Shown in pieces: positions 35,797 through 63,626 of a DNA stretch of 64,000 bases (position 1 is its first letter; every line of letters starts with the position of its first letter). The position numbers were made by a program, and so were the translations under genes. The DNA is from Numidum massiliense (GTDB lineage Bacteria > Bacillota > Bacilli > Thermoactinomycetales > Novibacillaceae). The notes beneath the pieces were generated by a model. The model searched no databases. It saw nothing but the letters and a program-made list of their open reading frames with translations, and was not told where the DNA came from. The stretch covers positions 62,001-126,000 of the forward strand of contig NZ_CTDZ01000009.1 in assembly GCF_001375555.1 (NCBI RefSeq), in the 5' to 3' direction.

Positions 35797-35832
35797 GGAT
35801 GTGTGGGTAGTTTGACTAAGGGGAGAATATCA

Positions 35833-38514: not shown

Positions 38515-38909
38515 TACTGTAGCAACCCGATCAGTCGTATTTGGTTTAGTGAAAGCCCTTGCAGTGAAAGGGTGGTCGCTTCTGATTAAACGTCATGTAA
38601 ATTGGCCTTTAAACGGGGCAACTTTTTTAAGAAACACACATAGCGGTGAGTCAGGATAAACACACCAATGGGTCAAGATCAACACATCAAGAAAATCAAC
38701 AAATTTCCCTTGTTTTAACTTTAAACCGCTTCCATGAGAAATAATTCGTTGCAATTTCGGATGGCCGCGTGACAGCGCGTCAAAATAACGACAGTTTTTG
38801 TCTAAAGGTGTTATTCTGCTATCTAGTTTATTTTTGGGTAAATCTGTGTTCATTTATGCAACAATATTGAATAAAAGTAATAAAAGAATAAAGGAATATG
38901 GAGGTAACT

Positions 38910-40619: not shown

Positions 40620-41465
40620 ATGACGGTAATAGCAGTTGTCGGAGCTGGAGTGATGGGCTTAGATGTGGCCGCCACTCTGGCTTCTCATAAATATGACGTA
40701 ATTTTAGTGGATATCGACCAAGAGGTGTTGAGTGGGGCACCAGCGGCCATAAAGCGAAACATCCGCAACTACCGCATCGTTTCGCCGAAAGTACGTGAAT
40801 GGGATGCAGCAGATATTTTGGGACGGATCACGTTTACGAGGGATTACGAACGATTTGATCAGGCCGCTTGGGTCATCGAAAACATTACCGAAGATTGGCA
40901 GGCAAAAAGTAAGTTCTATGAAGAAATGAGCGACGTATGCGGGCCAGACACTATTTTTGCAGTTAATACGAGCTGTATTTCGATTACGAAACTGGCCGCT
41001 TGCGTGCCCTACCCCGATAAGGTCATCGGCATGCATTTCATGAATCCTGTTCCCCTTAACGATACGGTGGAAACTATTCGCGGCTTTCATACGTCTGAGC
41101 AAACCGTTGAGGCCGCCGAAAAGTTTTTGCGGAGCCTCGGGAAATTCCCGATTGTCGTCAAGGACTCCCCTGGATTCGTGTCTAACCGCTTGTCTCACCT
41201 ATTTATGAATGAGGCGGCATTTTTAGTCCAAGAGAATATCGCTGGACCGCAAGAAATAGACGCTATGTTTAGGAAGGGATATGGCCATAAAATGGGTCCT
41301 TTAGAAACGGCTGACCTAATCGGGTTGGATACGGTCGTACGTTCCTTAGAAGTGCTATATAAAGATTATCAAGATCCGAAGTTTCGATGTTGCCCACTCT
41401 TAAGGAAGATGGTTGAAGCGGGGTTACTAGGTCGAAAAAGCGGAAGAGGGTTTTACACCTATTAG
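40620..41465 (+). CDS. 3-hydroxyacyl-CoA-dehydrogenase-like enzyme of extender-unit synthesis (FkbK type)
   Basis: NAD-dependent dehydrogenase of 281 residues. The Rossmann motif is VGAGVMGLDVA; catalytic residues are the Ser in NTSCISIT, the His in GMHFMNPVP and the Asn in SPGFVSNRL. Enzymes of this type in FK506, ansamitocin, oxazolomycin and zwittermicin clusters oxidise glyceryl-ACP to the 2-hydroxy-3-oxo form on the way to hydroxymalonyl-ACP. The following FkbH, ACP and FkbI homologues make that role near certain; a fatty-acid role is unlikely in this setting. ATG 40620 follows GAAGGGG. Distances to the next gene are short (15 bases). Confidence 0.87.
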   Translation: MTVIAVVGAGVMGLDVAATLASHKYDVILVDIDQEVLSGAPAAIKRNIRNYRIVSPKVREWDAADILGRITFTRDYERFDQAAWVIENITEDWQAKSKFYEEMSDVCGPDTIFAVNTSCISITKLAACVPYPDKVIGMHFMNPVPLNDTVETIRGFHTSEQTVEAAEKFLRSLGKFPIVVKDSPGFVSNRLSHLFMNEAAFLVQENIAGPQEIDAMFRKGYGHKMGPLETADLIGLDTVVRSLEVLYKDYQDPKFRCCPLLRKMVEAGLLGRKSGRGFYTY

Positions 41466-41480: not shown

Positions 41481-42518
41481 TTGAAAGAAATAAAATGCGT
41501 CGTATGGGACCTAGACGATACGCTATGGGACGGTGTGTTGTTAGAGGGCGATCGCGTTCAGTTAAAACCTGGCGTTCGTGACATTCTTAATACGCTAGAC
41601 AATAGAGGGATTCTTTTATCGATTGCTAGTAAGAACAATCATGCTCAAGCGATGGAACGGCTTGTTGAGTTTGGAATCGATCATTATTTCTTGTTTCCAC
41701 AAATCAATTGGAATGCAAAGTCTTCCTCGTTAGCCAAAATTAAACAATCCCTTAATATAGGTATGGATACGATTGCGTTTATCGACGATCAAGCGTTTGA
41801 GCGGGACGAGGCAAAGTCGGTACATCCGGAGATTACCGTCTTCGACGCCACAGCTTATCGGGAGCTGCTTGCAATGCCTCGCCTTAACCCGAAAGTTATT
41901 TCGGATGATAGCCGCCGTCGCAGACTTATGTATGTGGAGGACCAGAACCGACAAGCAGCGGAAGCGGCATATGAAGGGCCGACTGTGAAATTTTTGGAAA
42001 GCCTTGCTATGAAATTTACGATTTCGCGCGCTCGGGAAGAAGATTTGCAACGAGCCGAAGAGTTGACAGTTCGCACGAATCAGCTCAATTCGACTGGTAT
42101 CCAATACAGTTACGATAAGCTGAAAGAGCTGCTAGAATCGCCTACCCACCACTTATGGATTTGCGAGCTCGTGGATCGATACGGTTCATATGGAAAGATC
42201 GGACTAGTGTTAGTAGAGATTCAAGGCGATGTTTGGCATATTCGCCTCTTGCTTATGTCGTGTCGGACTGTATCGCGGGGAGTTGGGACCGTCCTGCTGT
42301 CCTTCCTAATGAAAAAGGCCAAAGAAGAAGGGAAAGTCCTAAGAGCCGACTTCCGGCGCACCGAGCGTAACCGCCAGATGTTAATGACTTATCAATTTGC
42401 TAACTTTAAGGAGAAGGAGCGAGTGAAGGATATTACCGTATTTGAAAACGATCTATCCAAAATTCAGGACTACCCGCCGTACATTCAAGTGATTGTAGCT
42501 GAGGAGGAAAAAGTATGA
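41481..42518 (+). CDS. FkbH-like HAD-IIIC protein (glyceryl-ACP synthase)
   Basis: Takes the glyceryl group from 1,3-bisphosphoglycerate, dephosphorylates it and loads it on a carrier protein. Residues 1-150 are the HAD domain with WDLDDTLWDGVLLEGD (nucleophile Asp pair), SKNN and FIDDQAFERDE. The C-terminal half is the GNAT-like acyl-transfer domain with NQLNSTGIQYS and the conserved MSCRTVSRGVG, where the Cys accepts the acyl group. 345 residues is the usual length. TTG 41481 lies 7 bases after GAGAGGAG. It overlaps the ACP gene by 4 bases. Some FkbH proteins supply lactyl or glyceryl starters instead, but the two dehydrogenases beside it point to hydroxymalonyl-ACP. Confidence 0.9.
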   Translation: MKEIKCVVWDLDDTLWDGVLLEGDRVQLKPGVRDILNTLDNRGILLSIASKNNHAQAMERLVEFGIDHYFLFPQINWNAKSSSLAKIKQSLNIGMDTIAFIDDQAFERDEAKSVHPEITVFDATAYRELLAMPRLNPKVISDDSRRRRLMYVEDQNRQAAEAAYEGPTVKFLESLAMKFTISRAREEDLQRAEELTVRTNQLNSTGIQYSYDKLKELLESPTHHLWICELVDRYGSYGKIGLVLVEIQGDVWHIRLLLMSCRTVSRGVGTVLLSFLMKKAKEEGKVLRADFRRTERNRQMLMTYQFANFKEKERVKDITVFENDLSKIQDYPPYIQVIVAEEEKV

Positions 42519-42790
42519 TTCAAACCGAGCAAGAGGCAAGGAACCGAATCCGGGAATTCATCTTGGAAAATATGGATGTATTCGACGAGACGGCGGAGTT
42601 ATGTGACTCTGACAACATCTTTGAAAAAGGATTTGTTAGCTCTATTTTTGCCATGCGTTTGCTTCATTTTATCGAACAGGAATTCGCAGTCGACGTATCG
42701 GACGAGTATATCGTGCTGGAGAATTTTAATTGCGTAGACAACATGATTCGCTTAGTCACAGACTTGAAAGGTGGCGCCTATGCAACGTGA
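42515..42790 (+). CDS. Dedicated acyl carrier protein (FkbJ type)
   Basis: A 91-residue stand-alone carrier. The phosphopantetheine site is EKGFVSSIFAMRLL with Ser43; the SSIFAM phrase (rather than DSL) is usual for the carrier that holds the three-carbon unit made by FkbH. The ATG at 42515 overlaps the FkbH stop, and its end overlaps the acyl-CoA dehydrogenase start by 11 bases. It should be activated by the transferase at 35833, and its loaded form delivered to a module by an acyltransferase that recognises ACP-bound extenders. Confidence 0.9.
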   Translation: MIQTEQEARNRIREFILENMDVFDETAELCDSDNIFEKGFVSSIFAMRLLHFIEQEFAVDVSDEYIVLENFNCVDNMIRLVTDLKGGAYAT

Positions 42791-43949
42791 AGACCAACAA
42801 GCGGTATTAGCCCGTGCGACTGTGTTTGCCGAATCTGTTATACGCCCCCAAGCTGGGCATATTGATCAGGTGGAAGCCCTACCGCGCGAAATTATTACTG
42901 GTATAGCAGAACACGGTTTACTAGGCGCACCGATTCCTGCCAAGTACGGGGGATTAGGTTTAGATCCCGTAACTTACGGGAAGCTGACGGAGATTATTGG
43001 CAAAGCATGTTGTTCGACGCGTACGCTGTTGACGGTACATACTTCGTTAGTTGGAGAGACGCTCGTTAAAATGGGAAATGCCGCGCAAAAAGAGAAATAT
43101 TTGCCCGATCTAGCGGCAGGAAAACGGCTGTGGTGTTTTGCACTGTCGGAACCTGAAAGCGGGAGCAATGCGAATTCTGTACATACGCGTTACGAAAGCA
43201 AAAAAAACGGTTTTATCCTCAACGGAAAGAAAAAATGGATCTCCTTTGCAGAAATCGCCGACTATTATTTGCTGATTGCCGCTGACAACGGGGTAGTAAG
43301 CGCCTTCATCGTAGAGCGGGATCGGCCAGGTATTGAAATAAGGCCGATGAAAGGCTTGTTAGGAAGCCGAGGATCGCATATGGCGGAGATTTCGCTTCGA
43401 AACGTGGAAATTCCTGCGGAAAACTTGTTAGGACAGCTGGGTATGGGCTTTAATTTTATTGTGAATACAGCGTTGCACTACGGACGATACAGTGTTGCCT
43501 GGGGAGGTGTGGCCGTTGGACAAGCTGCATTGGAAGAAATGGTGAACTACGCCAGAACTCGGGAGCAGTTTGGTCAAAAAATTGGACAGTTCCAGCTGGT
43601 CAAAGGAATGATCGCGGACGCAGTGACACGCGTTCACGCGGCTCGTGCCTTATGCCTCAAAGCAGGGGAGTTGCATCTCGCCAACGATGAGCAAGCTGTG
43701 ATGGAAACGAACATTGCTAAATATTTCACCTCTAAAGTAGCGCTCGAAGTTGCTTCTGACGCTGTTCAAGTATTTGGAGGTAACGGTTGCTGGAATCAGT
43801 ATCCTGTCGAGCGTTTGTTCCGAGAAGCGAAGATTTTGGAAATCATTGAGGGTACATCGCAACTGCAACAGGTTTTAATCGCCGACCACGGGTTGCGCAA
43901 GTACAGGCGGCGGAAACTGACAGGATTGGGGGAGGCGTATCGTGAATAA
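42780..43949 (+). CDS. Acyl-CoA-dehydrogenase-like oxidase (FkbI type)
   Basis: FAD-dependent enzyme of 389 residues that acts on the ACP-bound three-carbon unit, converting the aldehyde-level intermediate to hydroxymalonyl-ACP (or an equivalent step) in concert with the FkbK-like enzyme. Family signs are CFALSEPESGSNA (FAD binding), GKKKWISFAEIADYYLL, RTREQFGQKIGQFQLVKGMIAD cut by short variable parts, VQVFGGNGCW and the C-terminal LEIIEGTSQLQQ. ATG 42780 has AAAGGTGG 6 bases upstream; GTG 42771 is less likely. It overlaps the giant PKS-NRPS gene by 8 bases, so the operon runs straight on. Confidence 0.88.
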   Translation: MQREDQQAVLARATVFAESVIRPQAGHIDQVEALPREIITGIAEHGLLGAPIPAKYGGLGLDPVTYGKLTEIIGKACCSTRTLLTVHTSLVGETLVKMGNAAQKEKYLPDLAAGKRLWCFALSEPESGSNANSVHTRYESKKNGFILNGKKKWISFAEIADYYLLIAADNGVVSAFIVERDRPGIEIRPMKGLLGSRGSHMAEISLRNVEIPAENLLGQLGMGFNFIVNTALHYGRYSVAWGGVAVGQAALEEMVNYARTREQFGQKIGQFQLVKGMIADAVTRVHAARALCLKAGELHLANDEQAVMETNIAKYFTSKVALEVASDAVQVFGGNGCWNQYPVERLFREAKILEIIEGTSQLQQVLIADHGLRKYRRRKLTGLGEAYRE

Positions 43950-46900
43950 CATTCGGTCGAGACAATACGATGAGATGCTAAAAACTGTGCGAGAAGAAGT
44001 CGAAAGTTTGTTAGGCGACACTTGTGATAACGTGGATACCGGTTTCTTTGATCTCGGTCTAAGCTCGGCGCAACTGCTTGCATTCCAAGACGGATTGGAG
44101 AAGCGACTAGGTGTAAAATTGTCCAGCACTATCGTGCTAGATTACCCTAATATACGTGTCTTAGCCAATTACTTAGCGAGTGATGAAGTACAGGAAGGGC
44201 AAGCGGTAACGACGCAATCTTTAGCTAAGGGGAAGGAAGGGGTAACAGGTGATATTGCAGTCGTCGGGATGGCTTGTCGCTTTCCGGGTAATGCAAACAC
44301 TCCTGACGCGTTTTGGGATTTGTTAAAGGAAGGGATCGACCCGATCGGCGACGTACCTCTTGGCCGTTGGGATAACGATCCGCTTGCTCAATCTAAGATG
44401 ACCAACTCGATGGGGGGTTACATTGACAACGTCGATCAGTTTGACTCGCTATTTTTTGAGATTTCATCGAAGGAGGCTGAAGCTCTCGACCCACAGCATC
44501 GCCTATTATTGGAAATGGCTTGGGAAGCGTTAGAAGATGCCGGTTGGGATCCGAAGTCGCTCTCAGGGAGTCGTACGGGCGTATTTGTCGGTATAACGGG
44601 TAGTGATTATGCTCAAGTTGGACGCGACCTGGGGCATCCGCCGGGTGCATACAATTTAACCGGGACAATGAACAACAGTGCAGCCGGACGGGTCTCTTAC
44701 ACGTTAGGCCTACAGGGCCCGTGTATGGCGATTGATGCAGCTTGTGCTTCCTCGCTAGTAGCCGTCACCGAAGGAATGATGCACCTTCGTTCGGGCAGCT
44801 GTGACGTTGCGTTGGCCGCAGGTGTTAATCTCATTTTACGCGCCGAGGGGCATGCTTGTTTTTCGAGCTTGCAGTCATTGTCACCTTCCGGGCGATGCCA
44901 CAGTTTTGACGAGGCGGCCGACGGCTATGTGCGGAGTGAAGGTGGAGCTATGCTCGTTCTCAAGCGCCTAGAGGACGCTAAGCGGGATGGCGATCCAATT
45001 TGGGGGGTCATCAAGGGGGCGGCAGTGAACCACGACGGGCGTAGCGGCGGGTTTACGATGCCTAATGGTCTTGCCCAGCAAAATGTCATTCGCCAAGCGT
45101 TGGCTGATGCGGGTCTTACCGCAGACGATATCGATTATGTGGAGGCACACGGTTCGGCAACAAAAATTGGCGACCCGCAAGAAGTTAACGCCTTGGCAGA
45201 AGTATTCAAGGGCAGACAGCGAAAGCTCTATTTAGGAAGTGTCAAATCAAACGTCGGTCACCTAGAAATGGTCGCTGGCTTGGCCGGTTTGTGTAAAGTT
45301 TTATTGGCTATGCGCGAAGGCCAGATTCCTGCGAACCTCCACTTTAATAAGGGAAACCCGATGATTCCGTGGGAGAAAATCCCGATCGAGGTCGTAGGCG
45401 AAACGATCGATTGGAAAACGAAGGATGGCGTGTGCCGAGCGGGGATTACTTCTATCGGCATCAATGGGACGAATTCGCATGTAGTTGTAGAAGGTGTGCC
45501 CTTAAAAACGAGTGAATCGTCAATGCCAGCTACTTCTTTTAAAGACACGCATCTGTTTACACTTTCTGCTCGGACTGAGTCCTCCTTACGCCAATACGTG
45601 CGTGAATTGGCCGCGTGGTGTCACCAACCGACTGCAGGAATAGCAGAGCTTTGTCAACATTTAAACCTTAGCCGAGCATCACTCAAGCGGCGGCTTTCTT
45701 TGACTGTAGATAGTGTAGACACGTTAGCAAGGCGCCTAGAAAAAGTGGCGAACTCCGCAGAGCCTTTAGGGAGAGAAGTAGAGGAAAAACGGGCACCTCT
45801 CGTATTTCTATTTACGGGTCAAGGTTCACAATACCATAACATGGCACGAGCCCTTTATGAAGAATCCGAGGCATTTAGGGAGAAGCTTGACGAAATGGAT
45901 AAGGCTTTTCGCCCCAAAATAGGCGTGTCTTTGACGGAATTAGTATACGGCCCCGAAACAGATGCACTCACGCGCCCATTGTATTCGCAGCCCCTCATTT
46001 TTTCAATACAGATGGCCTTAGCCCACTTTTGGGAGTCTTTAGGGTTAATACCCGACCTACTAATCGGTCACAGTATTGGGGAATACGCTGCTGCTTGCGT
46101 AGACGGAGTCGTGAGTCCCGAAGACGCGGTCGCCATGGTCACTGCCCGCGCGCAGATCATGGATCAAACGTCAGTAGAGGGGCGAATGGTGGGGATTTTG
46201 TCCAACGAGGCACGCGTTCAGGAACTTATTAAAGATTACGACGACGTATGTATTGCGGCCATTAACTCACCAGAAAACATCACTGTTTCCGGTCGTAAGG
46301 CGAGCATTGACGATCTCGTGGCACGAGTGCGCAAAGAAAGGATTTTTGTTGAAGAATTACAGGTGTCTCATCCTTTTCACTCGGCGCTTATGCGGGATGA
46401 TGCGCGAAGGCTGCAAGAGCAACTCGCCGGGCTGACCTTTCATCCGCCTTCTCATCGGTTTATTTCTACTGTTACAGGTCGTTTTGTACCTGAGGGGAAA
46501 GTGTTGGACGACGTTTACTGGGCCGATCATTTGGTGAAACCAGTGCAATTTGTCGACGCTTTGCAAACTGCTGTTGCGTTTGGCGGCCGTGTGTTTCTCG
46601 AAATTGGTGCTACTGCCACACTCAGTGGACTAGCCGCCCAAAATTATAACGAAGACACCCTGCAGTTTTTACCGAGTCTGCGGAAGGGACGTTCCGTATG
46701 GCAACAATTACATAACAGCTTAGGGCAATTGTGGGAAGCAGGATTTTCTATACGCTGGGAAGGATTACACCACAACCGAGCACCTAGGATTGAACGTTTG
46801 CCACATACGCCTTACGATCGGAAAACAGTTTGGTTCGCTAAGCGCCATGCGAGTGATCTCAATGTGAGGGAAGTAGCGACGGCCAAGGAATCAACGCTTG

Positions 46901-49900
46901 TTATGCCAAGTGATTCCTTAAATGCGGCAGCGCCATATTTAGCCAATGGCGTCAACAATGCCAATAGTGGTAGCGATGTCAATGGATGTAGCGATGCCAA
47001 AGCTGCGAGTATGGGAGAAGCGCTCAAGGAGATGGTCGGTAAGGTAACGGGTGTCCCGAGAGCAGACATTACGGATCGTGTCAATTTGTTTTCATTAGGT
47101 CTCGATTCGTTAATGATGGTACAGCTGCGAAGGTTTATTTTGGACGAGTACGGTGTCGATATCCCGACCAATACGTTTTATATAGAATTGCATACGGTTG
47201 AGTCGATGGTACACTACATCGTGCAAAACCGCCCGGCTACTGAAGACGATCACGGTGAAACTAACGACTGTCAGTTTGTGACGCAAACGCCACAACATGC
47301 CGGTGAGCCCCATTCGGAAGCGATCGACGAAGCGAGTGCTGCACCGGTTGGCACGCAGTTGTCAATCCCGTCCAGCGGTGCGGAAGCAAGTGGAATAGAG
47401 GACATCATCCGCCGTCAGTTAGTCGTAATGGAAGAGCAACTACGCCTCATTAAGGGGGGGGATTCTGAACCGGTCCGAGTGGCCGAAAGTGCACCATCTC
47501 GTCAAGCGAAATCATCTCCTAAAAGTAGTGGGAGAGTGGATGATTACAAATTGGAAAACGCGCCACTAAACAACCGCCAAAAAGCACTTGTCGAACGCTT
47601 AGTCGCATCGTGGACAAGCCGTACAAAGCAGTCGAAGGCGTATGCAGCTAAGTACCGAGAAGGATTGTCTGACTGGATTGCCAACCTCAACTTTGATTTT
47701 AATATTAAAGAGCTCGTGTATCCGGTCGTGGCCGCACGATCGAAAGGTTCTAAGTTTTGGGATATTGACGGCAACGAATATGTCGACACGGCGATGGGGT
47801 ACGGCGTTTCCTTTTTCGGACACACCCCTGACTTTGTAGCCGAAGCCATTCGTGAACAGTTGGAAAAGGGGATTGAGCTCGGACCGCAATCAGCTTTAGT
47901 CGGAGAGGTAACGGAACTTGTTAGGGAGCTTACAAAGGTGGAACGTGTCGCTTTTTGTAATTCCGGCACCGAGGCAGTGATGGTAGCGTTGCGCATCGCT
48001 CGCGCGATCACTGGGAGAGACAAAGTCGTGCGCTTCACTAACTCGTATCACGGTACTTTCGACGGTGTACTAGCTGATAGTAGCGGGGATAACAGTCAAC
48101 CGATGGCCAAAGGGACCCCGCAGACGATGGTCGATGATACGATCGTACAAAGTTACGGAAGTACGGAATCGCTTGAATTAGTTAAACAGATGGGATCCGA
48201 GCTCGCCGCTGTACTGGTGGAACCTGTGCAAAGCCGTAACCCAGGACTGCAGCCAGGTGAGTATTTGAAACAATTGCGTGCCTTATGTTCGGAGCACGGC
48301 ATCGCGTTAATTTTCGACGAAATGATTACAGGGTTTAGGATTCATACGGGAGGTGCCCAGGCGTACTTTGGTGTTACGGCTGATATTGTCACTTACGGCA
48401 AGATTATCGGTGGAGGGATGCCGATCGGCGTTGTGGCCGGAAAGGCGGAATATTTGGATGCTCTCGACGGCGGAAGTTGGTCGTTCGACGACGACTCCGG
48501 GCCGACGGTACAGCCTACTTCTTTTGGCGGCACCTTTTGTAAGCATCCGTTGTCCATGGCGGCTAGTCGTGCCGTATTGCGGCGCTTACGGGATGAAGGC
48601 CCTGCTTTAATTGCAAAGACGAATGAACTGACGCGCCGCTTTGTCGACCGAGCGAATGCGTATTTTCAAAAGGCGCGCGTCCCTCTCCATGCAATGTGCT
48701 TTGGGAGCATGTATCGATTACAGCCTGGTGTCTCTACTAATATGTCTATGTTGTCGATCGAACTGAACTTGTTTTACCGGTTAATGATGGAAGCCGGGGT
48801 TTATATGTGGGAGAGGCGCACGTGCATCTTTTCTGCGGCGCATAGTGAAGAAGACGCTAAGCGCATTTTGGATGCGATCCGCTACAGTGTGGAAGCGTTG
48901 CGGGAAGGTGGTTTCGAGTTTCGGACATTGGACGGAGGCAACGGCCCAGGTGGAGGTGGCAGTAGCGTCGTTCGCGATAGCAGTAGCGTTTCCCAGGGCG
49001 TTAGTGCCCCCCAGGGCGGCAACGGCTGGGGATCCCAAAGCGGAAGCGGGCAAAGTGGCGTGAGTGTCACTCTAAGTGGCGGCGATTTCAGAAGCGATCC
49101 GTTCCCCCTGTCGTCGGAAGAACGGAGAATTTACATCATGTCGAGACTGGAAGGTGGAAATGAAGCCTACCAAATCCGCGGTGCTTATGACTTAGACGGG
49201 AAGCCGGATGTGGAGAAACTAAAAAAAGGGTTTCAGATGATCGCAGAAAACCACGAGATGCTACGGAGCTCTTTTCATGTGGAACAATCAGGCGTCGTGC
49301 ACCGTATTGCCGATTCTGTCGAGCCCGAATACGTTTATGCAGATTTCCGCAAACCCGGGGATAAGGAGTCGTTTGCATCGTTTTGGGAACGTCCCTTTGA
49401 TTTGGAAAAGGCACCGCTTTGGCGCTGGGCTTTAGTCGTTGATCAACATGGGGACCATAAACTGTTTCTCAGTTTCCATCACATCATTTCCGATGGCGGT
49501 TCTATGAATATTATTTTGCAAGACTTAGCTGCAGTCTTTAAGGGAGCCCCATTGACAAAACCTTCGTTGCCTTACCGGCAGTTTGTAGAGGCGGAGCAGC
49601 TCTTTCTGAACAGTGTTGAAGCGGCGAAACAGCGCGATTGGTGGATGGAACAATTACATCCGTTGCCACCTGCCCTTAATCTGCCTAATGATGCCTTACG
49701 CCCTGCGGTGAACGAGTTTCGCGGAGCAAGCCATTACTTTACCGTAGAGGCCGAGGTACTGAAGCGGGTCAAGACGTTGGCTAAGCAAAGTGCAACTACT
49801 CCGTTTATGGTGTTATTATCTGCGTGGGCGGCCTTTCTAGGGCGTGTAAGCGGACAGACCGATTTTTGTATCGGGGTTCCGTGGGACAGGCGCAATAGCG

Positions 49901-52764
49901 GCGACTTTGGCAGTACGGTCGGGATGTTTGCCCAGTCGCTCGTGATGCGGTTAAAACCTAAGTTTACACAGACGTTTATGGATTTTCTCGGTACCGTGCG
50001 GTCAACGTGCTTAAGTACTTATGGACATGCCGATTATCCGCTCGACGCCTTATTACAAGATTTGCAAGTGTCTCGCGATATGAGTCGCAACCCTCTTTTC
50101 GATGTCATGTTCAATTATGAAAATGACGATCAAAGGGTAGTCGATCTGGATGGCGTCCGCGCTGAAATGGGCGAACATCCTATACGTTACGCCCAATTTG
50201 ACTTGTTTTTGGACCTGCTAGAGAGAGGCGATCGGTTGTTTTGCATTTTGACTTATGCTGTACCACTTTACTCTAGCGAGCGAGTCGACGATTGGGTGCA
50301 TCGTTTTAAACACTTTTTAAACGAAATCCTTATGTACCCCGAGCGTGAGATCGGAGATTTTAAGTTTCTCCGGGAACAAGAGGAACGGGCAATACTAGCC
50401 CTAGGACGCGGTCCGGAAGATAAGGGGGGGGCTGCAACAGCTACTGAGCTTTTAGCTACTGCCGCTCAAGTGCACCGTAGGAAGCCCGCCATTTGGTTTA
50501 AAGGGAAAGAAATGTCCTTTGCCGAGTTCGAGGCAAGGGCGAATACAATAGCCGCTCACTTGTCCAGTTTCGGTGTGAGACCCGGCGATACAATCGGCAT
50601 CTTGTTGTCGCGCACGCCCGATCTGATTGCCGCGCTCATGGCAGTTATGAAAACAGGATGTGCTTGGGTGCCCTTAGATCCGTCATTTCCAGAGGAGCGT
50701 CTACGCTACATGATTGAGAATAGCGGCACTCGGCTATTAGTGAGCGAGAAGGCGATCATCGATCGTTACACGTTCAGTGTACCTTTTACCGATCTTAGCG
50801 ACGTCGGCAGTCAGCAGGATGTGTTAACGCCGACGTACAGGAGTAGCCCCGAGGATTTGGCGTACGTGATTTATACGTCGGGTTCAACGGGACGACCGAA
50901 GGGCGTGATGTTAGAACAAGGGGCGTTAGCTAACTTTATCACTGGGATGTCGCAAGCGCTAGATTGGCCTACTGGCAGAAGGACTGCTTGTTTAACGACG
51001 GTTTCTTTCGACATATTTTTACTAGAGACGTTGATATGTATGGCAAACGGCGGCTGCGTGGTCCTGGCAGAGGAAAGTGAGGCAGTGTCTCCGGCCCAAA
51101 TAGCTAATCTCGTACGTGACGGTCGGGTGGATTGTTTGCAAATGACACCGACGCGACTACAGTTGCTCTTTACGGACAAACAAGCAGCTAACGAGGTGCT
51201 CGAAGCGGTGGAAGCTGTCATTGTCGGCGGCGAGGCCTTTCCTACACAATTGTTGCCTGAACTGCAGCGTCATCAATCGTTGCGAATATTTAACGTTTAT
51301 GGGCCAACGGAAACTTGTGTGTGGTCGACGTGCAAGGAGCTGACTGATTCACAACATGTCAGTATCGGTCTCCCTATTGCGCGTACGAACACTTACGTGT
51401 TGGACAAACATAGGCGCTTGGTCCCCCCGGGGGTTGCCGGCGACCTTTGGATCGGGGGAGCGGGAGTCGCTCGTGGCTACATCGGCAATTCGTCTCTTAC
51501 CGCGGAGCGTTTCGTCGAAGATCCTTATAGCGGTGGCAGGATGTATCATACGGGAGACCGTGCCATATGGAACAACGGAGAACTGGAATGCCTCGGTCGC
51601 GATGACGACCAAATTAAAATTCACGGGTTCCGCATTGAACTTGGGGAAATTGAAGCAGTTTTACGCGAACACCCTGCTGTCGCGCATGGCGCGGCGGCTA
51701 TTCGGGAAACGAGTTCGGGAAATCGCGTGCTCGTCTCTTATTACAAGAGAAAGTCAGGGGCATCTGTGACGGAACACGAACTTAAATCGTGGCTAGCGGA
51801 ACGATTACCGCAGTATATGGTGTCGGCTTTCCTAGTCGAACTAGAGGACATCCCGCAGACACCTAACGGAAAAGTCGATCGAAAGGCTTTGCCCGTACCG
51901 ACTGTCCGGCAAAACCGTAAGCTGACCGATTCGTCACACGAACAATTGGAGCAAGTGTTACGGGACGTCTGGAAAAAAGTTTTAGGCGATCGACCGTTTG
52001 GCACACACGACAGCTTCTTTGACGTCGGTGGGAATTCCTTTCGTTTAGTTTTACTACACGCAGAATTGGAAAAGGTTTTCCCGGGTATCGTTTCAGTGGC
52101 TGATCTATTTGCACTGCCTACGATCGCCAGATTAAAAGAACATATTGAACATGAAAATAGCGGGGCGAAGGATAATCAAGGGGTGTTGACACTAGCGGAA
52201 CAGTGGTTCACCTCCTCCGACGGAAGAGAAGGGTACGTCGAGATGGCGCTGGACATGGCAATGAAGCGTGCCATTCAAGCGTTAGGAGTCCCTTACGGTT
52301 TGACGATCCGAGAAACATTAGGTGCTTTGTTTGCCCTATATTTGCACAAAAGCCTTAAGCAAAGCGAGATTCCGCTGTGGTTCATTAAAGATTCGGAACA
52401 AGCTGCTCTAGTGACAGTTGACTTTACCGATCAATCGGATCTCGGTAATGTGCTGAGGGAGTTATCGACGATGCGGCCCACTCTTACGGATTATGAAAAA
52501 CTAAACAGGTTGCGCCCGACCGTGAAGGCTAAAGCTCGCGTGGGCTTTGCATCTGCAAAAAGCCCGGATCGCCGATTGTTACTGAAAAGGTTGGACCTTT
52601 ACCTGGCCGTTGAGGAAAAGGGTGGGAAGACCTCTCTTATTTTCGAATACGGTAAACGACTAGCGGGTTCGGCTTTAGAGCGACATATGCACCGCTTTCT
52701 TAAGTTGATCAACATAGTCGGAGAGAAAATAGGTTCGAACAAACATGAGCCAGTTAAAAGTTGA
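43942..52764 (+). CDS. Hybrid PKS-NRPS with aminotransferase: ACP-KS-AT-ACP-AMT-C-A-PCP-(partial C)
   Basis: A 2940-residue assembly-line protein. Domains: N-terminal ACP (about 5-75, Ser42 in DLGLSSAQ); KS (104-520, Cys268 in DAACASS, His in VEAHGSAT and KSNVGH); AT (618-915, Ser711 in GHSIGEY, HPFH at 810-813, a malonyl-like signature); ACP (1020-1095, Ser1056); class III PLP aminotransferase (1210-1650, Lys1487 in TYGKIIGGG); condensation (1710-2140, HHIISDG at 1846); adenylation (2155-2650, TSGSTGRPKG, YGPTET, YHTGD, NGKVDRK); PCP (2665-2735, Ser2699). The last 200 residues resemble the C-terminal half of a condensation domain. The KS-AT-ACP-AMT block would make a beta-amino acid by transaminating a beta-keto acyl chain, as in iturin synthetases. 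GTG start 43942 after GGGGGAGG. No acyl-ligase loading domain is present. Confidence 0.9.
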   Translation: MNNIRSRQYDEMLKTVREEVESLLGDTCDNVDTGFFDLGLSSAQLLAFQDGLEKRLGVKLSSTIVLDYPNIRVLANYLASDEVQEGQAVTTQSLAKGKEGVTGDIAVVGMACRFPGNANTPDAFWDLLKEGIDPIGDVPLGRWDNDPLAQSKMTNSMGGYIDNVDQFDSLFFEISSKEAEALDPQHRLLLEMAWEALEDAGWDPKSLSGSRTGVFVGITGSDYAQVGRDLGHPPGAYNLTGTMNNSAAGRVSYTLGLQGPCMAIDAACASSLVAVTEGMMHLRSGSCDVALAAGVNLILRAEGHACFSSLQSLSPSGRCHSFDEAADGYVRSEGGAMLVLKRLEDAKRDGDPIWGVIKGAAVNHDGRSGGFTMPNGLAQQNVIRQALADAGLTADDIDYVEAHGSATKIGDPQEVNALAEVFKGRQRKLYLGSVKSNVGHLEMVAGLAGLCKVLLAMREGQIPANLHFNKGNPMIPWEKIPIEVVGETIDWKTKDGVCRAGITSIGINGTNSHVVVEGVPLKTSESSMPATSFKDTHLFTLSARTESSLRQYVRELAAWCHQPTAGIAELCQHLNLSRASLKRRLSLTVDSVDTLARRLEKVANSAEPLGREVEEKRAPLVFLFTGQGSQYHNMARALYEESEAFREKLDEMDKAFRPKIGVSLTELVYGPETDALTRPLYSQPLIFSIQMALAHFWESLGLIPDLLIGHSIGEYAAACVDGVVSPEDAVAMVTARAQIMDQTSVEGRMVGILSNEARVQELIKDYDDVCIAAINSPENITVSGRKASIDDLVARVRKERIFVEELQVSHPFHSALMRDDARRLQEQLAGLTFHPPSHRFISTVTGRFVPEGKVLDDVYWADHLVKPVQFVDALQTAVAFGGRVFLEIGATATLSGLAAQNYNEDTLQFLPSLRKGRSVWQQLHNSLGQLWEAGFSIRWEGLHHNRAPRIERLPHTPYDRKTVWFAKRHASDLNVREVATAKESTLVMPSDSLNAAAPYLANGVNNANSGSDVNGCSDAKAASMGEALKEMVGKVTGVPRADITDRVNLFSLGLDSLMMVQLRRFILDEYGVDIPTNTFYIELHTVESMVHYIVQNRPATEDDHGETNDCQFVTQTPQHAGEPHSEAIDEASAAPVGTQLSIPSSGAEASGIEDIIRRQLVVMEEQLRLIKGGDSEPVRVAESAPSRQAKSSPKSSGRVDDYKLENAPLNNRQKALVERLVASWTSRTKQSKAYAAKYREGLSDWIANLNFDFNIKELVYPVVAARSKGSKFWDIDGNEYVDTAMGYGVSFFGHTPDFVAEAIREQLEKGIELGPQSALVGEVTELVRELTKVERVAFCNSGTEAVMVALRIARAITGRDKVVRFTNSYHGTFDGVLADSSGDNSQPMAKGTPQTMVDDTIVQSYGSTESLELVKQMGSELAAVLVEPVQSRNPGLQPGEYLKQLRALCSEHGIALIFDEMITGFRIHTGGAQAYFGVTADIVTYGKIIGGGMPIGVVAGKAEYLDALDGGSWSFDDDSGPTVQPTSFGGTFCKHPLSMAASRAVLRRLRDEGPALIAKTNELTRRFVDRANAYFQKARVPLHAMCFGSMYRLQPGVSTNMSMLSIELNLFYRLMMEAGVYMWERRTCIFSAAHSEEDAKRILDAIRYSVEALREGGFEFRTLDGGNGPGGGGSSVVRDSSSVSQGVSAPQGGNGWGSQSGSGQSGVSVTLSGGDFRSDPFPLSSEERRIYIMSRLEGGNEAYQIRGAYDLDGKPDVEKLKKGFQMIAENHEMLRSSFHVEQSGVVHRIADSVEPEYVYADFRKPGDKESFASFWERPFDLEKAPLWRWALVVDQHGDHKLFLSFHHIISDGGSMNIILQDLAAVFKGAPLTKPSLPYRQFVEAEQLFLNSVEAAKQRDWWMEQLHPLPPALNLPNDALRPAVNEFRGASHYFTVEAEVLKRVKTLAKQSATTPFMVLLSAWAAFLGRVSGQTDFCIGVPWDRRNSGDFGSTVGMFAQSLVMRLKPKFTQTFMDFLGTVRSTCLSTYGHADYPLDALLQDLQVSRDMSRNPLFDVMFNYENDDQRVVDLDGVRAEMGEHPIRYAQFDLFLDLLERGDRLFCILTYAVPLYSSERVDDWVHRFKHFLNEILMYPEREIGDFKFLREQEERAILALGRGPEDKGGAATATELLATAAQVHRRKPAIWFKGKEMSFAEFEARANTIAAHLSSFGVRPGDTIGILLSRTPDLIAALMAVMKTGCAWVPLDPSFPEERLRYMIENSGTRLLVSEKAIIDRYTFSVPFTDLSDVGSQQDVLTPTYRSSPEDLAYVIYTSGSTGRPKGVMLEQGALANFITGMSQALDWPTGRRTACLTTVSFDIFLLETLICMANGGCVVLAEESEAVSPAQIANLVRDGRVDCLQMTPTRLQLLFTDKQAANEVLEAVEAVIVGGEAFPTQLLPELQRHQSLRIFNVYGPTETCVWSTCKELTDSQHVSIGLPIARTNTYVLDKHRRLVPPGVAGDLWIGGAGVARGYIGNSSLTAERFVEDPYSGGRMYHTGDRAIWNNGELECLGRDDDQIKIHGFRIELGEIEAVLREHPAVAHGAAAIRETSSGNRVLVSYYKRKSGASVTEHELKSWLAERLPQYMVSAFLVELEDIPQTPNGKVDRKALPVPTVRQNRKLTDSSHEQLEQVLRDVWKKVLGDRPFGTHDSFFDVGGNSFRLVLLHAELEKVFPGIVSVADLFALPTIARLKEHIEHENSGAKDNQGVLTLAEQWFTSSDGREGYVEMALDMAMKRAIQALGVPYGLTIRETLGALFALYLHKSLKQSEIPLWFIKDSEQAALVTVDFTDQSDLGNVLRELSTMRPTLTDYEKLNRLRPTVKAKARVGFASAKSPDRRLLLKRLDLYLAVEEKGGKTSLIFEYGKRLAGSALERHMHRFLKLINIVGEKIGSNKHEPVKS

Positions 52765-52815
52765 GTACGTTATTAAGCCACAGGACGGGAACATTCATGT
52801 GAAAGGAGTAGTCAA

Positions 52816-54081
52816 ATGAATAAAACAGTCTTCATGTTTCCTGGTCAAGGATCCCAATATGTCGGTATGGGTAAGTATTGGTATGACCGTTACGAATCGG
52901 TGCGTCGTCGTTTCGACGAAGCTTCGGAACAATTGCGGCTCGATCTTGTAGATTTGTGTTTTAATGGGCCCGCTACGCGACTCAATCAGACGGAAAATAC
53001 ACAGCCTGCACTGTTAACGTTAAGTGTAGCTATGTTTGAAACGATTCGGGAGGAGGCAGGTATTCAGCCGGACTATTTGGCGGGACACAGTATCGGGGAG
53101 TTGTCCGCATTGACCGCGGCCGGCGTTTTCCGGTTTCGCGACGCCGTTCGACTGGCTCGCGCAAGAGGTGAGGCGATGGCCGCTTGCGATGCGGGAGTAG
53201 GGGCCGGCATGGTTGCGATCACGAATTTTAAAGCGGCTGATATTGAAGCGGTTTTAACGGAATTGGATCCTGGAGGATATGAGGTGCAAATCGCTAATTA
53301 CAACAGTCCTGTCCAGTCGGTACTTTCCGGGAGTAAAGACGGTCTGGAAATGGCTGGCGAAAAGTTGCGGGAGTTAGGTGCGAACGTTATTCCTTTGAAT
53401 GTCAGCGGACCGTTCCATAGCCGCTTTATGGTTGGTGCTAGTGAAGCGTTGGCGACTGCATTGGAAGATATAACGGTAGGGGAGATGTCAATCCCGGTTA
53501 TATGCGGTCATAAAGGACGTCTATACGCTAAGAATGACGATATTAAAATAGCCTTGGTCAACCAATTGACTGCAGCTGTGCGTTGGACAGACGTTCTTTC
53601 GACGCTATCGAATGAAGATGTCGAAAAGTGGATCGAGGTAGGGCCAAAAGACGTATTGAAAAATCTCGCTTTGAAAACTTTACCGGGAGTCGAAGTGTAC
53701 GCTTACGATAATGACGACGACCGCGAGGTGCTGACATCTTTGCGAGAATCGAAAGATCAGCTTCCGAATTTGTTCGGTCTCTGCTTAGGGGCTGCCGTAT
53801 GCACGCGCAATACGAATTGGGATGAAACGGCTTACCGACAAGGAGTCATTGAACCGTACCAAAAAATCCAAGCCCTTTACGAGCAGGTGGAAAAGGAGGA
53901 ACGGGTTGTATCAAAGGAGGATATGAGTTACGCCTTGTCCCTATTGGATATTATTTTTGAGACGAAAGGCACGCCGACAGCCGAACGCAGACGGCGGTTT
54001 AGGCACATTTTGGAGACGACTCAAACGACCGAGCTTTTTCCACAATACGTGGCAATGGGAGAGGAAGCAGTTAATGGATAA
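52816..54081 (+). CDS. Stand-alone acyltransferase (trans-AT)
   Basis: FabD-like acyltransferase supplying extender units to the AT-less modules that follow. Residues 1-290 are the catalytic fold: PGQGSQYVGMG, Ser92 in GHSIGELSAL, the Arg in ARARGEAMA that grips a carboxylate, GAGMVAI and the His in SGPFHSRF. About 130 residues follow that are not part of the AT fold (LFGLCLGAAVCTRNTNWDE, then an acidic/basic helix with MSYALSLLDIIFETKG); I do not recognise this tail. ATG 52816 follows AAAGGAG. It overlaps the next PKS gene by 8 bases. The extender is probably malonyl-CoA, but hydroxymalonyl-ACP is possible given the genes upstream. Confidence 0.88.
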   Translation: MNKTVFMFPGQGSQYVGMGKYWYDRYESVRRRFDEASEQLRLDLVDLCFNGPATRLNQTENTQPALLTLSVAMFETIREEAGIQPDYLAGHSIGELSALTAAGVFRFRDAVRLARARGEAMAACDAGVGAGMVAITNFKAADIEAVLTELDPGGYEVQIANYNSPVQSVLSGSKDGLEMAGEKLRELGANVIPLNVSGPFHSRFMVGASEALATALEDITVGEMSIPVICGHKGRLYAKNDDIKIALVNQLTAAVRWTDVLSTLSNEDVEKWIEVGPKDVLKNLALKTLPGVEVYAYDNDDDREVLTSLRESKDQLPNLFGLCLGAAVCTRNTNWDETAYRQGVIEPYQKIQALYEQVEKEERVVSKEDMSYALSLLDIIFETKGTPTAERRRRFRHILETTQTTELFPQYVAMGEEAVNG

Positions 54082-57000
54082 GCCGATCATTAATCTAGAT
54101 GACCTCGAGCTTGATGCACTCGATCTGAATGGGTTGGACGAGAAAATGGCCGTTGGGGAAGCGGCGATTCGTTCAGAAAAACCGGAGGCTCACACCGGAG
54201 CGGTTGCGATTATCGGTATGGACGGCAGAGTGGGGCAAGCAGAAAACTTGGAGCAATTTTGGGAGCTATTAGCTCAAGAAAAAGAGGGGCTTCGAGAAAT
54301 CCCCGCGCAGAGGCGTCGCGATATAGAAACTTATTTAAAGGCGCACGGTGCCTGGCGACCGGACGAGAAACGTTCATATTTGCGCTCGACGTACTTAGAA
54401 GACATCTCTCTCTTTGATCCCGGCTTTTTCGGTATTTCCCGACAAGAGGCGAATTACATGGACCCCAACCAGCGAATTTTTTTAGAAACGGCTTGGAAGT
54501 CCTTGGAGGATGCCGGTTACGGGGGGAGCGACATTCGGGGAACAGATACCGGTTTATTCGTAGGATACACGTCGGATTTCGGAGAGGACTACCGGCATAT
54601 GATTAGTCGTCTTCATCCTGACGCACCGGAAGTTTCGGTAGCGGGTAACGTGAAATCTGTCATCGCCAGTCGGTTAGCTTATCACTTGGATCTACGTGGG
54701 CCCGCGCTACTCGTCGATACAGCGTGTTCCTCTGGCTTGATGGCCGTATATTTAGCCAGTCGCGCCATTAGGAGTGGCGAGTGTACCATGGCGATCGCGG
54801 GAGCCGTGAATCTCGATCTACTGCCTTTCGTTGACAAAGGGACTGGTTTCGGTATTAAAGATATTCAGGACATCCAGTCCGCCGACAGTCACACGCGTAC
54901 TTTTGACGACAAATGTGACGGTACGACAACGGCAGAAGGTTCGTTTGCCTTTGTACTTAAATCTTTAGACGATGCGCTGCGGGATGGGGATTGTATTAGA
55001 GCAATTATACGCGGAGGTGCGACTAACCAAGATGGGGCTTCCAACGGCATTACAGCGCCGAACACTCGCGCTCAGGAAGATTTGATCGTTCGTGCGCTAG
55101 AAGATGCTCGCGTTTCGGCAGAAGATTTGAGCTACATCGAAGCTCACGGAACAGCGACCCGCCTTGGGGACCCGATCGAAATTAATGGTATACAAAGTGC
55201 TTTAAGGCATTTTACGGATAAGAAACAGTTCTGTGCGATCGGCGCCGTAAAATCGAATATCGGTCATTTAGACAACGCGGCTGGTTTAGGCGGCCTGGCC
55301 AAAGTCGTCATGGCGATGGAGAAAAAGGTGTTGCCCGCTACTCTCAACTTCTCCGTACCGAACCGGAATATCTCGTTTGTCGAATCGCCCGTATACGTCA
55401 ATGACCGTACAGTGCCGTGGACAGATGATCCCGAGCAAGTTGTACAGGCGGGAATTAACAGCTTTGGACTGAGTGGCACAAACTGTCATCTAGTGCTGGA
55501 ATCGGCTCGCGCGAGGCATGTGCGGTCGCGAGAAGAAGAAGTGTGCGAACGCTTGTTGTTGCCGTTGAGCGCGAAAACGCCGGAGGCGTTAAAAACGTTG
55601 GCAAAAGCGTATCAAGTGCGCCTAGCTGATCCGAACGTCGATTTAGTTGACGCTGTATTTACAGCGTCTCGGGGAAGGATGCACCATCAAATACGCCTCG
55701 CGGTCTTATTCGAAACGAGGGATCAGCTTTGCGCGGCTTTGGGCCGCTTCGCTTCGTTAGGGAAAGACGCACTACCGGATATTGTCCTCCGCTACGGCGC
55801 GCATCGACTTATTGAAAACGACACAAACCGTCGCAGGCCAACGGATCTGACTAATCTTGAACGGGAACGTTTAGAAGCAGAAGCACAATCGTTAGTGAAC
55901 GGCTGCGACGGACGACTTTCGCCAGACGTATTGGAACGATGGGCAGAACTGTATGTCGCCGGAGCTGAGTTGCCGTGGGATTATTTGACAAAGGGTCTGG
56001 AAACTCACAGAATTCCGTTGCCGACGTATCCTTTTCAAGGCGTTCGCTGCTGGGTCGAGCCGAAGGTGACTATCGGTGAAACAGCATCTTTAGGATCGCA
56101 CCCTTTGCTGGGGGATTCGGAGGTCAAGACGATCGGACATACGTTAATCCGGAAACAGTTCCGCCCGGAACAGCACTGGGAGCTTTCCGATCACCGGATT
56201 CGCGGGACGAGCGTTTTACCGGGTACCGCTTTTATAGAGATGATAGCAGCCTACGCTGAGCGATCGAACATTAAAACCGGCGGCTTACGCTTGACGAATA
56301 TCCTCTTTCTGCAACCTTTCACTGTGACAGACGGGGCGGCAAAGGAATTGCACATGTTAGTTCAAGACGAAGGGAAGCGAAAGCACTTCAAGTTTGCCAG
56401 CTGCTCGTCGGATGGCGACTGGGTCATACATGCGGAGGCATTCAGTGAAGATACAGCCGATCGCGAGGCTGGCACCGATTTAGATGTCGATTTGACCGCT
56501 CTGCAAGAGCGGTTGAACGATCGCGTACCGGTCGATACGGCCGACGACTTGATTCGCGGGATACATTTGGGTGGCCGTTGGAATGAATCTGTGATTGGCT
56601 GCTGGAAGGCAGAAGAGACGGAGGAGTTTTTGGTTGAACTTTCCTTACCGAATAAATACCGTGGGCACGATGCGGTTTATCACTTACATCCGGCTTTGTT
56701 GGACCAAGCTGTAAATGCCGCCAACCATTTGATGGATGAAAAAGAGCTGTACCTGCCTTTATCTTATGGGGAGTTGCGCGTGTACAAGCCGCTTCCGCCC
56801 CGATTGTTCGCCCATTTACAAAAGGTAGACCGTACTGCTAGGCCAGAGGATCGACAAGCGGGGGCACCTGTTCATCGCTTTAATATGGCTTTATACGATG
56901 CTGCGGGAGGCCTCATACTGGAAATTCGTGATTACTGCATAAAATCGACCTCGGAGGCGTGGGGGGAACGCGAGGCGGGTGAGGCGTACGGATACAAGCA

Positions 57001-58858: not shown

Positions 58859-61800
58859 AAAAATATATTTTGTCCCAATTGGCAATGCAAAAATTATCGA
58901 AAGAAGAGGCGAAGGCGTTGTTGCTCGATTTGCAGAGCAACCCGAAAGAACCGTTGCAAGGTGATGTGGCGATCATCGGCATGGCCAGTCGCTTTCCAAA
59001 AGCGGATGACCCGGAAGCTTTTTGGGAGCTATTGAGAGATGGGGTGAACTGTATTCGGGATTACCCGAAGGCGCGATTTAACGATTTTGAACACGTGTTA
59101 CGGAACCCCCATTACTCGGAATTTATGCTCGGGCAAGTGATACGACAGGAGGATGTGCCATACGTTCACACCAAAGCGGGGTATTTAGAAGAAATCGATA
59201 AATTTGATGCGCAATTTTTCGGTATCCCCCCAACTGAGGCGATTTATATGGATCCACAGCAACGCATGGCCTTAGAAGTTGCTTGGGAGGCAATGGAAGA
59301 TGCGGGATACGGGGGCGATTCTCTCGTAGGGAGTCGCACCGGAGTGTATGTGGGGAAAGAGGGCACTAATTACTCTTTTTACCGACACCACTCTGCAGGG
59401 CATCCGATGCAGTTGACTGGGTCGTGGGAAAGTTTGATGGTGAGTCGCATTTCCTACCTTTACGATTTTAAAGCACCTTGCATGGTTGTTGACACTGCCT
59501 GTTCCTCTGGTTTAGTCAGTATCCATATGGCCGTGCAAGCGCTGCTCAATGGCGAGTGTGATCTCGCTATTGCCGGCGGGATTAACTTATCCTCCGGCGG
59601 TGAGTTAAAACCTCAATTTCAAGGGAAAGCGAACTTGTCGGATGTCGAGTCCGGTGACGGGCTAGTGAGAACGTTTGATGCTAAGGCGAATGGTACCGTA
59701 TGGGGTGAGGGAGTCGGCTTAGTCATGCTAAAACCGCTGCAAAAGGCGATCGAAGACAGGGACCACATCCGTGCCGTCATTAAAGGCAGTGCGATCAATA
59801 ACGATGGGGCAGCGAGTAGCATCACGGCACCGAGGGCGGAAACTCAAGAGGCTGTCATCGTCGATGCGTGGCAGAAGGCGGGCATTCCCCCGGAAACTAT
59901 TTCTTATATTGAGGCACACGGTACGGGAACAGTGTTAGGGGATCCGATTGAGGTGAAAGGTTTGAGTAACTCGTTTCGCCGTTTCACCTCGCGGCGACAG
60001 TTTTGTGCGGTAGGTTCGCTAAAGACGAACATGGGTCACTTGGTCGGCGCTTCAGGCGTTGCTTCCTTAATAAAGGTCATTAAGTCGATCGAGCACAAGG
60101 AACTAGCCCCGAACATTAATTTTGAGACGCCTAACCCTTATATCAATTTCATGGACAGTCCTTTGTACGTCAACGACAGCTTGCAACCTTGGGATACTGG
60201 CGGGGTACCGCGGCGGGCGGCCCTCAGCTCATTCGGCTTTAGTCGGACGAACTGTCATATGGTCGTCGAAGAACCGCCAGTTTTAGAAGTGTCGGCAGCT
60301 CATCAACCGCGTTATTGTTTTACAATTAGTGCCAAAAACGAGGACGTATTGCAACAGTACGTGACTCGTTATACGCGTTTTTTGGCAAAGGGTGAGTGGA
60401 CGTTAGCCGACCTATGTTACACGAGTAATATCGGTCGGGGTCACTACGAACACCGAGTCGTTGTCATTGCCGAAACCGAGGTGGCGTTGCGCCGTGCTCT
60501 GGATGCGTTGAGTGAGAAGAGCATTCACGCTTCGCAAATACCGGGGACGTTTGCAGGTCACTTTCACATTGTCAGTGAAAAGAAAGTACAGCGCGAAGAA
60601 GGTGAGCGCAGCAAACACGAACTGACAATATTAAGCGAAAAAGCAAAGGCAACCTTGCAAAGCTATCTCGACGGTGGCTCAACGAACGTGAATTTACTGG
60701 AAGAGGTGTGCCGTTTATACGTACAGGGGGCAACCGTTGACTGGCAGATGCTTTACCGTGGCGAGAGGCGCCGCCGCGTGGCTGCACCGATCTACCCGCT
60801 GCAGCGGACGAGGTACTGGGCGGATCCGAAAATAAGCGAAGTGCGTCCAGAACCGTATGAGATACTACACCCGCTAGTGGAAACAAGAGTCTCGGCAAAC
60901 GCCGGAGAGATCAGTTACGAGACGACGCTCAGTATCGATAAGCATTGGCTATTAGCGGATCACCGCATCGTCGGTAAAGCAGTGCTTCCGGGAACTAGCT
61001 ATTTAGAAATGGTTCGCTTTGCTGCCAGCGAGGTGCTCGGAAAGGAAAGTTTAGTATTTAGTGATGTGTTTTTTCTAGCGCCTTTAGTCGTGGAAAACGA
61101 GGAAAGGGCGGTCGTGCGCCTGACTCTCGTCCCGGAATCGAGCGGTTATTCTTTTGCGGTCGAGAGCATTACCGATTCGAACGAGCGGGTCCTCCACGTC
61201 AAGGGCCGGGTAGCGGCATGTGACGTCGAACCGACTGACGTGTCAATAAACTTTGAGGACTTTAAGAGTCGGGCAGATGACGTCATGGATCCGTATATTT
61301 TTGAGAGCGATACAGGTGTCTTCAAATTTGGTCCCCATTGGGATACGGTACGTGCTGTCTGGCAAACGGACAAGGAAGCATTAGCTTTTTTAAAGTTAGA
61401 TGAGAGTATTCAGCATGAGTTGGATGCGTTTCCACTCCATCCTTCGATGCTTGACAATGCGGTTAATTTGACCAGCCAAAATACTGGAGACACATTTTTA
61501 CCGTTTATGTATAAAAAATTACGGTATTTTGCCCCTTTGACAAGAAACGTTTATACGTACCTCCGTATGCACACGGACAAAGGTAGCTCTGGCGAGACGA
61601 TGACTTACGACATCGACCTTTTGGATGCTGACGGGCGAGTGCTAGTGCAAATTACTGACTATACCGTAAAACGCGTGCACAATTTTACGTCGCTCGAAAG
61701 CGATAAAGTACCTGGGCGCTGTATGCAGATGACTTGGGTGCTGCGGGAAGAGACGCCGGAGATTCCGTTGACGGCATCGTCAGCACCGTGGGCGTTGCTC

Positions 61801-63624: not shown

Positions 63625-63626
63625 CG

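Follow-up and report, generated by a model that had tools for sequence, protein, structure and literature searches.

Candidate entry of hydroxymalonyl through a discrete acyltransferase in a hybrid cis- and trans-acyltransferase assembly line of Numidum massiliense

When a biosynthetic assembly line has both built-in and discrete acyltransferases (ATs), which of them takes an unusual extender unit? The question arises in a stretch of 64,000 nucleotides of the Numidum massiliense genome (3.76 Mb), positions 62001-126000 of contig C9, which we call the window. There, an operon of the hydroxymalonyl-acyl carrier protein (hydroxymalonyl-ACP) type lies directly upstream of a gene cluster encoding a polyketide synthase (PKS) and nonribosomal peptide synthetase (NRPS) line, and this position makes a division of labor among the ATs plausible. 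An earlier sequence-only reading had proposed that one AT handles malonyl and another hydroxymalonyl; the proposal is reasonable given the operon, but the contrast of AT motifs on which it leaned does not show it. The cluster has ketosynthase (KS) modules with and without an AT in one line, together with a discrete AT, and can be described as a hybrid cis/trans-AT PKS-NRPS system. Our analysis of the sequences tentatively points to the discrete AT, hereafter T (52816..54081), as the likeliest entry point of hydroxymalonyl, ahead of the cis AT of the first gene.

The operon consists of four contiguous genes, encoded, like genes A to D and T, on the plus strand. They are a 3-hydroxyacyl-CoA dehydrogenase-like gene (40620..41465; NF004474, E 8e-90, 301 bits, under the cut-off of 408, with Pfam 3HCDH_N and 3HCDH over cut-off), a gene for an FkbH-type HAD protein (41481..42518; TIGR01686, 270.5 bits for a cut-off of 146.65), presumably in charge of glyceryl transfer, a stand-alone extender ACP (42515..42790; NF005480, E 7e-8, 32 bits, under the cut-off of 72, and no Pfam match at 0.001), and finally an acyl-CoA dehydrogenase-like gene (42771..43949; Pfam Acyl-CoA_dh_1 and Acyl-CoA_dh_N over cut-off, and Acyl-CoA_dh_M too). 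The 3-hydroxyacyl-CoA dehydrogenase and the extender ACP match their Oceanobacillus orthologues at 66% and 65%. No other gene lies between the four, hence no O-methyltransferase, and this arrangement corresponds to a hydroxymalonyl-ACP operon, with the ACP and the 3-hydroxyacyl dehydrogenase under their NCBIfam cut-offs. The open reading frame (ORF) of the acyl-CoA dehydrogenase, which ends at 43949, overlaps that of the first PKS gene, which starts at 43942.

This first gene, gene A (43942..52764), encodes ACP-KS-AT-ACP-aminotransferase-condensation-adenylation-peptidyl carrier protein (ACP-KS-AT-ACP-AMT-C-A-PCP; Pfam domains, with PP-binding in three stretches). Its KS (residues 104-468) and AT (residues 621-917) confirm that the first KS module carries its own AT, AT1 (45802..46692; PF00698, 218 bits). 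T follows as a protein of 421 residues (PF00698, 118.6 bits) with a C-terminal tail common, according to sequence matches, to other discrete ATs of about 420 residues. Genes B (54074..58858) and C (58846..63624) both encode KS-dehydratase-ketoreductase-ACP (KS-DH-KR-ACP) by Pfam and lack an AT, as had been stated for the two KS modules after the first; the start of gene B is probably the ATG at 54074, overlapping the end of T. The discrete AT had been placed between these two modules: it exists, but between the first and the second KS modules. The line is also larger than had been noted. Gene D, which starts in the window (63621..64000) and continues beyond it (L001 1621-8496), encodes KS-ACP-C-A-PCP and a second condensation-type domain, and is a third KS module without AT. 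Further into L001, gene E encodes C-A-PCP and gene F, starting about 10 kb past the window, encodes KS-AT-methyltransferase-ACP-C, with a thioesterase next. Cis ATs are found in the first and last KS modules of the line. In the whole genome, PF00698 matches four ATs: T, FabD, and the cis ATs of genes A and F. The cluster, with its AT-less modules B, C, and D, thus has no discrete AT other than T.

We compared the ATs (matches of at least 240 residues) at the aligned columns of the active site, the carrier-contact strand, and the lid. The strand was implicated in carrier contact in the paper on ZmaA-AT of zwittermicin, which gives the three motifs as GYSFG/MCM/GAAH for the hydroxymalonyl AT, GYSLG/IAI/GPFH for the aminomalonyl AT, and GHSIG/KTT/HAFH for the malonyl AT (PMC4207774). 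In the window, AT1 has GHSIG/FVE/HPFH and T has GHSIG/NVI/GPFH; the cis AT of gene F has GHSLG and HAFH. Hence, no cluster AT has the GYS active site: T is not GYSLG as ZmaF, and neither cis AT has the change from GHS to GYS of ZmaA. The lids HPFH and GPFH, each with GHSIG, are indeed those reported by the sequence-only reading. Its use of them as a sign of a substrate split does not hold, because GPFH accompanies GHSLG in all seven FabDs, the host's own included, and two orthologous clusters in which the operon was not detected have the same HPFH. On these alignments, the contrast is one of cis versus FabD-like ATs and is uninformative on hydroxymalonyl, and we rejected a reading from these motifs alone. 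T combines the GHSxG and GPFH of a FabD-like, malonyl-CoA discrete AT with the absence of the basic residue at the position of R190.

This last position can be compared across orthologous clusters. Collinear clusters were found in Oceanobacillus manasiensis, reached via FkbH and carrying the same four-gene operon, and in two genomes of one genus (G184 and G194), reached by a class-wide search with the AT of gene A, where nothing similar to the four operon genes was found in the joined 65 and 68 kb. No further orthologue was found, either with the AT of gene A in 398 class genomes or with T in 7 family, 14 order, and 159 family genomes. Elsewhere in the G184 and G194 genomes, a GYS AT accompanies an FkbH-ACP pair, and there is a lone acyl-CoA dehydrogenase (47-48%); they are likely unable to make hydroxymalonyl-ACP. 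In that genus, FkbH and ACP lie next to an NRPS-cluster gene encoding a KS and a GYSLG AT (L112-L113, L118-L119, and L120-L121), and neither operon dehydrogenase was found within 40 kb. The carrier strand of T is NVI in both lines with the operon (lid GPFH in the window, GAFH in Oceanobacillus) versus RVV with GPFH in both lines without it. Thus, the R190 position is N in T of the window and Oceanobacillus and R in T of G184 and G194, as in 7/7 FabDs. The motifs of AT1 are GHSIG/FVE/HPFH in the window, Oceanobacillus, and G184, and the strand is FVQ, with HPFH, in G194. Extending the comparison to fixed operon-linked changes in 31 domains (D_A was dropped since its Oceanobacillus row was a wrong domain) gave 21/160 for T (p 0.18), 9/153 for AT1 (p 0.10), and 9/121 for the AT of gene F (p 0.44). 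The fixed changes of T lean to residues of ZmaF-like ATs (sign-flip p 0.028, one of nine tests and uncorrected; the other two tests for T gave 0.17 and 0.37). Those of AT1 and F show no such lean, and those of F lean away from the ACP type.

The AT phylogeny that the sequence-only reading had called for separates AT1 from known ACP-linked enzymes and leaves T compatible with several groups. In a tree of 88 ATs, from which rows on a preset drop list had been removed, 15 cis ATs with GYS, ZmaA included, form one clade (SH-aLRT 98, starred); one GYS cis row (G280) and all the window ATs are outside it. AT1 belongs to a CurL-like group, next to ATs that come from aminotransferase modules of G400 and G351 (99, starred). 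The ATs of the orthologous clusters, which have no aminotransferase, are still closest to these aminotransferase-module ATs. In a more careful tree of 31 rows, the ZmaA clade is supported at 98/97 and the approximately unbiased (AU) test excludes AT1 from it (p 8.8e-7). The AT of gene F falls outside the clade in the trees, and its inclusion in the nine-row ZmaA-type clade is not rejected in the 31-row set (p 0.0985). A 47-row test rejected both AT1 and F (p 0.00019 for F), with a 17-row GYS set that is itself not one clade. With a profile derived from 24 GYS and 36 GHS cis ATs, AT1 scored -19.8 and F -12.7, and by sequence both fall within the range of GHS (-36 to -9) and not of GYS (-3.3 to 57). 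The T proteins of the four lines form a tight clade (100/100), where those of the window and Oceanobacillus are sisters (96/80). The AU test rejected no grouping of this clade with FabD (p 0.62), ZmaF-like ATs (0.40), BamD/Fen (0.12), or FkbH-adjacent ATs (0.16). The last value rests on 27 of 36 rows, after removal of Alkalihalophilus, G314, G216, three short FkbH-linked ATs, and three of the four cis rows; given this value, we withdrew a rejection of the same grouping (p 0.00021) obtained without the Alkalihalophilus row in the group. Placing the window and Oceanobacillus T alone with ZmaF-like ATs was rejected (p 0.00035), which is expected since it breaks up the T clade.

What kinds of ATs accompany FkbH elsewhere? 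We examined 39 FkbH regions: the 30/30 places of the class search outside the window genome, two from Paenibacillus, the window, Oceanobacillus, and five plasmids, which are the ones among 115 plasmid records with an FkbH match that were examined at the FkbH locus. Most regions reach about 20 kb on each side, so that ATs further off can be missed. A GYS AT is present in 20 regions, ATs without GYS in 18, and no AT in one; the operon is not complete in all 39, as no match to the 3-hydroxyacyl dehydrogenase was found in five (the second loci of G184, G194, and G213, along with G280 and G330). In 14 of the 18 regions without GYS, the sole ATs with a recognized active site are discrete GHS enzymes of 321-455 residues, one region also having a GFS AT, and several of these AT frames are next to, or overlap, the frame of FkbH or of the acyl-CoA dehydrogenase. 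The other four (window, Oceanobacillus, G400, and G320) hold cis ATs. In three genomes (G377, G306, and G082; regions L122-L123, L124-L125, and L108-L109), a discrete AT near FkbH, of 321-322 residues and with a frame overlapping that of the acyl-CoA dehydrogenase, coexists with remnants of cis ATs lacking the serine, apparently a decay of cis ATs complemented in trans. An apparent GYSLG in G377 and G306 was discarded as active site; the serine is missing at the expected place in the cis ATs of all three genomes. This distribution suggests that, among cis ATs, it is the GYS type that takes ACP-linked units, and that discrete GHS ATs do the work in lines where no cis AT is functional. Since the three cluster ATs of the window are all GHS, its cis ATs look like CoA-type enzymes and T looks like a member of the discrete class. 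A small line on a plasmid of Alkalihalophilus pseudofirmus (L148 17663-37041) combines an FkbH operon with a pair of discrete ATs, of which one adjoins FkbH and the other is annotated as a malonyltransferase, a compact system in which to study the division of labor between ATs.

We favor T as the entry point because of this split among FkbH regions, the change between NVI and RVV, the lean toward ZmaF-like residues, and the position of AT1 outside the ACP-linked clade. There is also precedent: few discrete ATs are proven for substrates other than malonyl-CoA (KirCII, OzmC, and ZmaF), and among them ZmaF and OzmC establish the use of ACP-linked units (PMC6164871). Several observations weigh against this assignment. 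B and C would still depend on T for malonyl, so that T would need two donors. Its grouping with ZmaF-like ATs is one of several that the AU test did not reject, and it has GHSIG, not GYSLG. The basic residue is also missing from BamD (A-AYT), whose annotation is malonyl-CoA transacylase, which makes the loss at the R190 position a weak criterion; nor do we take a carrier strand without basic residues to prove an ACP donor, since both BamD and PaeIHB are without them. The same strand differs with the operon, in one residue, in the AT of gene F (AST in the window and SFT in Oceanobacillus versus SFR in both other lines). Fixed changes are not significantly enriched in T, and six other domains are under 0.05 (F_C 0.002, D_KS 0.005, A_ACP, B_DH, ACP0, and F_KS), so that T is no outlier. 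The contrast linked to the operon is one evolutionary event on one branch, and the FkbH-ACP pair and lone dehydrogenase of G184 and G194 mean that these genomes may not be strict negatives. Finally, the 14 regions inform on the sequence class of their discrete ATs and not on the unit loaded.

The closest competitor, which we regard as possible and somewhat less probable, is that AT1 takes hydroxymalonyl-ACP and T malonyl-CoA. Through the aminotransferase, an alpha-hydroxy-beta-amino acid would then precede glycine. The operon continues directly into gene A, their ORFs overlapping, the strand FVE has no basic residues, and an alpha-hydroxyl would be awkward on B and C, whose DH and KR domains have the usual motifs (the first DH motif was not found in 2/8 DH rows, both of gene C, probably cut by the domain limits). 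Moreover, the nearest outside relatives of AT1 are ATs preceding ACP-AMT: that in G400 is accompanied by HBDH, ACP, and FkbH, with an acyl-CoA dehydrogenase at 31%, and that in G351 comes from a genome that is not among the 29 with an FkbH match at 1e-80. Yet AT1 lies outside the ACP-linked clade with a profile score in the GHS range, its motifs are practically unchanged in the G184 and G194 orthologues, where no operon was detected, and only two of the 31 domains have a lower share of fixed changes linked to the operon.

Two other explanations fare worse. That the operon makes a starter or tailoring unit, with all cluster ATs using malonyl-CoA, seems improbable. It would fit the GHS type of all these ATs, and it could provide a starter for the window line, which keeps a free N-terminal ACP (43942-44211) without the adenylate-forming loading domain that precedes the first ACP in its three orthologues (Pfam AMP-binding in Oceanobacillus, BLAST matches in G184 and G194). 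In the window genome, the Oceanobacillus domain has a single partial match (E 6e-16). However, the operon includes the two dehydrogenases required to arrive at the malonyl level, and in Oceanobacillus it coexists with a separate gene for ligase-ACP loading, which leaves little support for the starter pathway raised by the sequence-only reading. Entry through the cis AT of gene F is very unlikely. Its carrier strand does differ with the operon and it is not excluded from the nine-row ACP-linked clade, but it has the usual malonyl motifs, it is excluded with the larger GYS set, its fixed changes lean away from the ACP type, and the methyltransferase of its module, which we take to be of the C-MT type, would require a doubly substituted carbon.

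If T is the entry point, the cis ATs of genes A and F would load malonyl-CoA on their own modules and T would load malonyl on B and C. In addition, T would take hydroxymalonyl over from the small ACP encoded upstream and transfer it to one of the AT-less modules. The best candidate recipient would be module D, which is free of reductive domains and would therefore leave the alpha-hydroxyl in place. The predicted order of addition, read from the order of domains and adenylation codes, is a starter, a C2 unit with transamination, Gly, two C2 enes, a C2 unit, Ile, Val, and a C-methylated C2 unit. The transamination would be by the class III aminotransferase domain of gene A (47719..48669; Pfam Aminotran_3), found only in the window cluster and without match in the three orthologous ones. 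The adenylation codes are DILQIGVVW (50458..51873 in gene A; Pfam), DGFFLGVVY, and DAFWLGGTF, presumably for Gly, Ile, and Val. Upstream of the operon (34243-40576) lie genes for an efflux protein of the major facilitator superfamily (MFS), a phosphopantetheinyl transferase, and two ABC transporter ATPases, each of the latter followed by a gene without NCBIfam match; the MFS, phosphopantetheinyl transferase, and ABC genes may belong to the cluster.

How does this line compare with known systems? Lines of the iturin, bacillomycin, and mycosubtilin type (BamD, FenF-like) share a discrete AT of about 420 residues directly before the first PKS gene. BamD and FenF presumably load malonyl, the former by its annotation. 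In two loci of this type (L023 and L146), that gene carries an aminotransferase, as gene A does; no AT was found between its KS and ACP, whereas the aminotransferase module here has its own. Discrete-AT lines linked to FkbH in Bacilli (G282, G154, G235, and others) have a similar discrete GHS AT of about 440 residues but no cis AT with a recognized active site in those regions. Zwittermicin A biosynthesis (ZmaA-AT, ZmaF, and ZmaK) also unites a hydroxymalonyl-ACP pathway, a discrete GPFH AT, and cis ATs in one line (PMC4207774); it differs in having GYSFG/MCM/GAAH in ZmaA-AT and GYSLG/IAI/GPFH in ZmaF, where we find GHSIG/FVE/HPFH and GHSIG/NVI/GPFH. Hybrid trans-/cis-AT lines with NRPS modules have been known since kirromycin, in which NRPS modules likewise occur with both cis-AT modules and AT-less ones accompanied by a discrete AT (PMC5818483). 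Its discrete AT KirCII is specific for ethylmalonyl-CoA (PMC6164871), in contrast with the hydroxymalonyl-ACP type operon of the window. Among titles and the beginnings of abstracts in the open-licence literature, we recognized no published description of the four-member cluster family.

These results have implications for the prediction of AT function. The GYS marker and the pattern of discrete ATs could help to predict which AT serves ACP-linked units in other clusters. Since the operon was detected in two of the four orthologous lines and not in the other two, the question can be tested by comparing the enzymes directly. A more specific idea, which the sequences evoke and which we consider rather doubtful, is that T has a double duty: it would be a malonyl-CoA enzyme that lost the CoA-gripping arginine when the line acquired or kept the hydroxymalonyl operon, and it would deliver malonyl to two modules and hydroxymalonyl to another, telling the modules apart by their ACPs. 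If this were true, the carrier specificity of trans-ATs would shift by a few residues, without the change from GHS to GYS.

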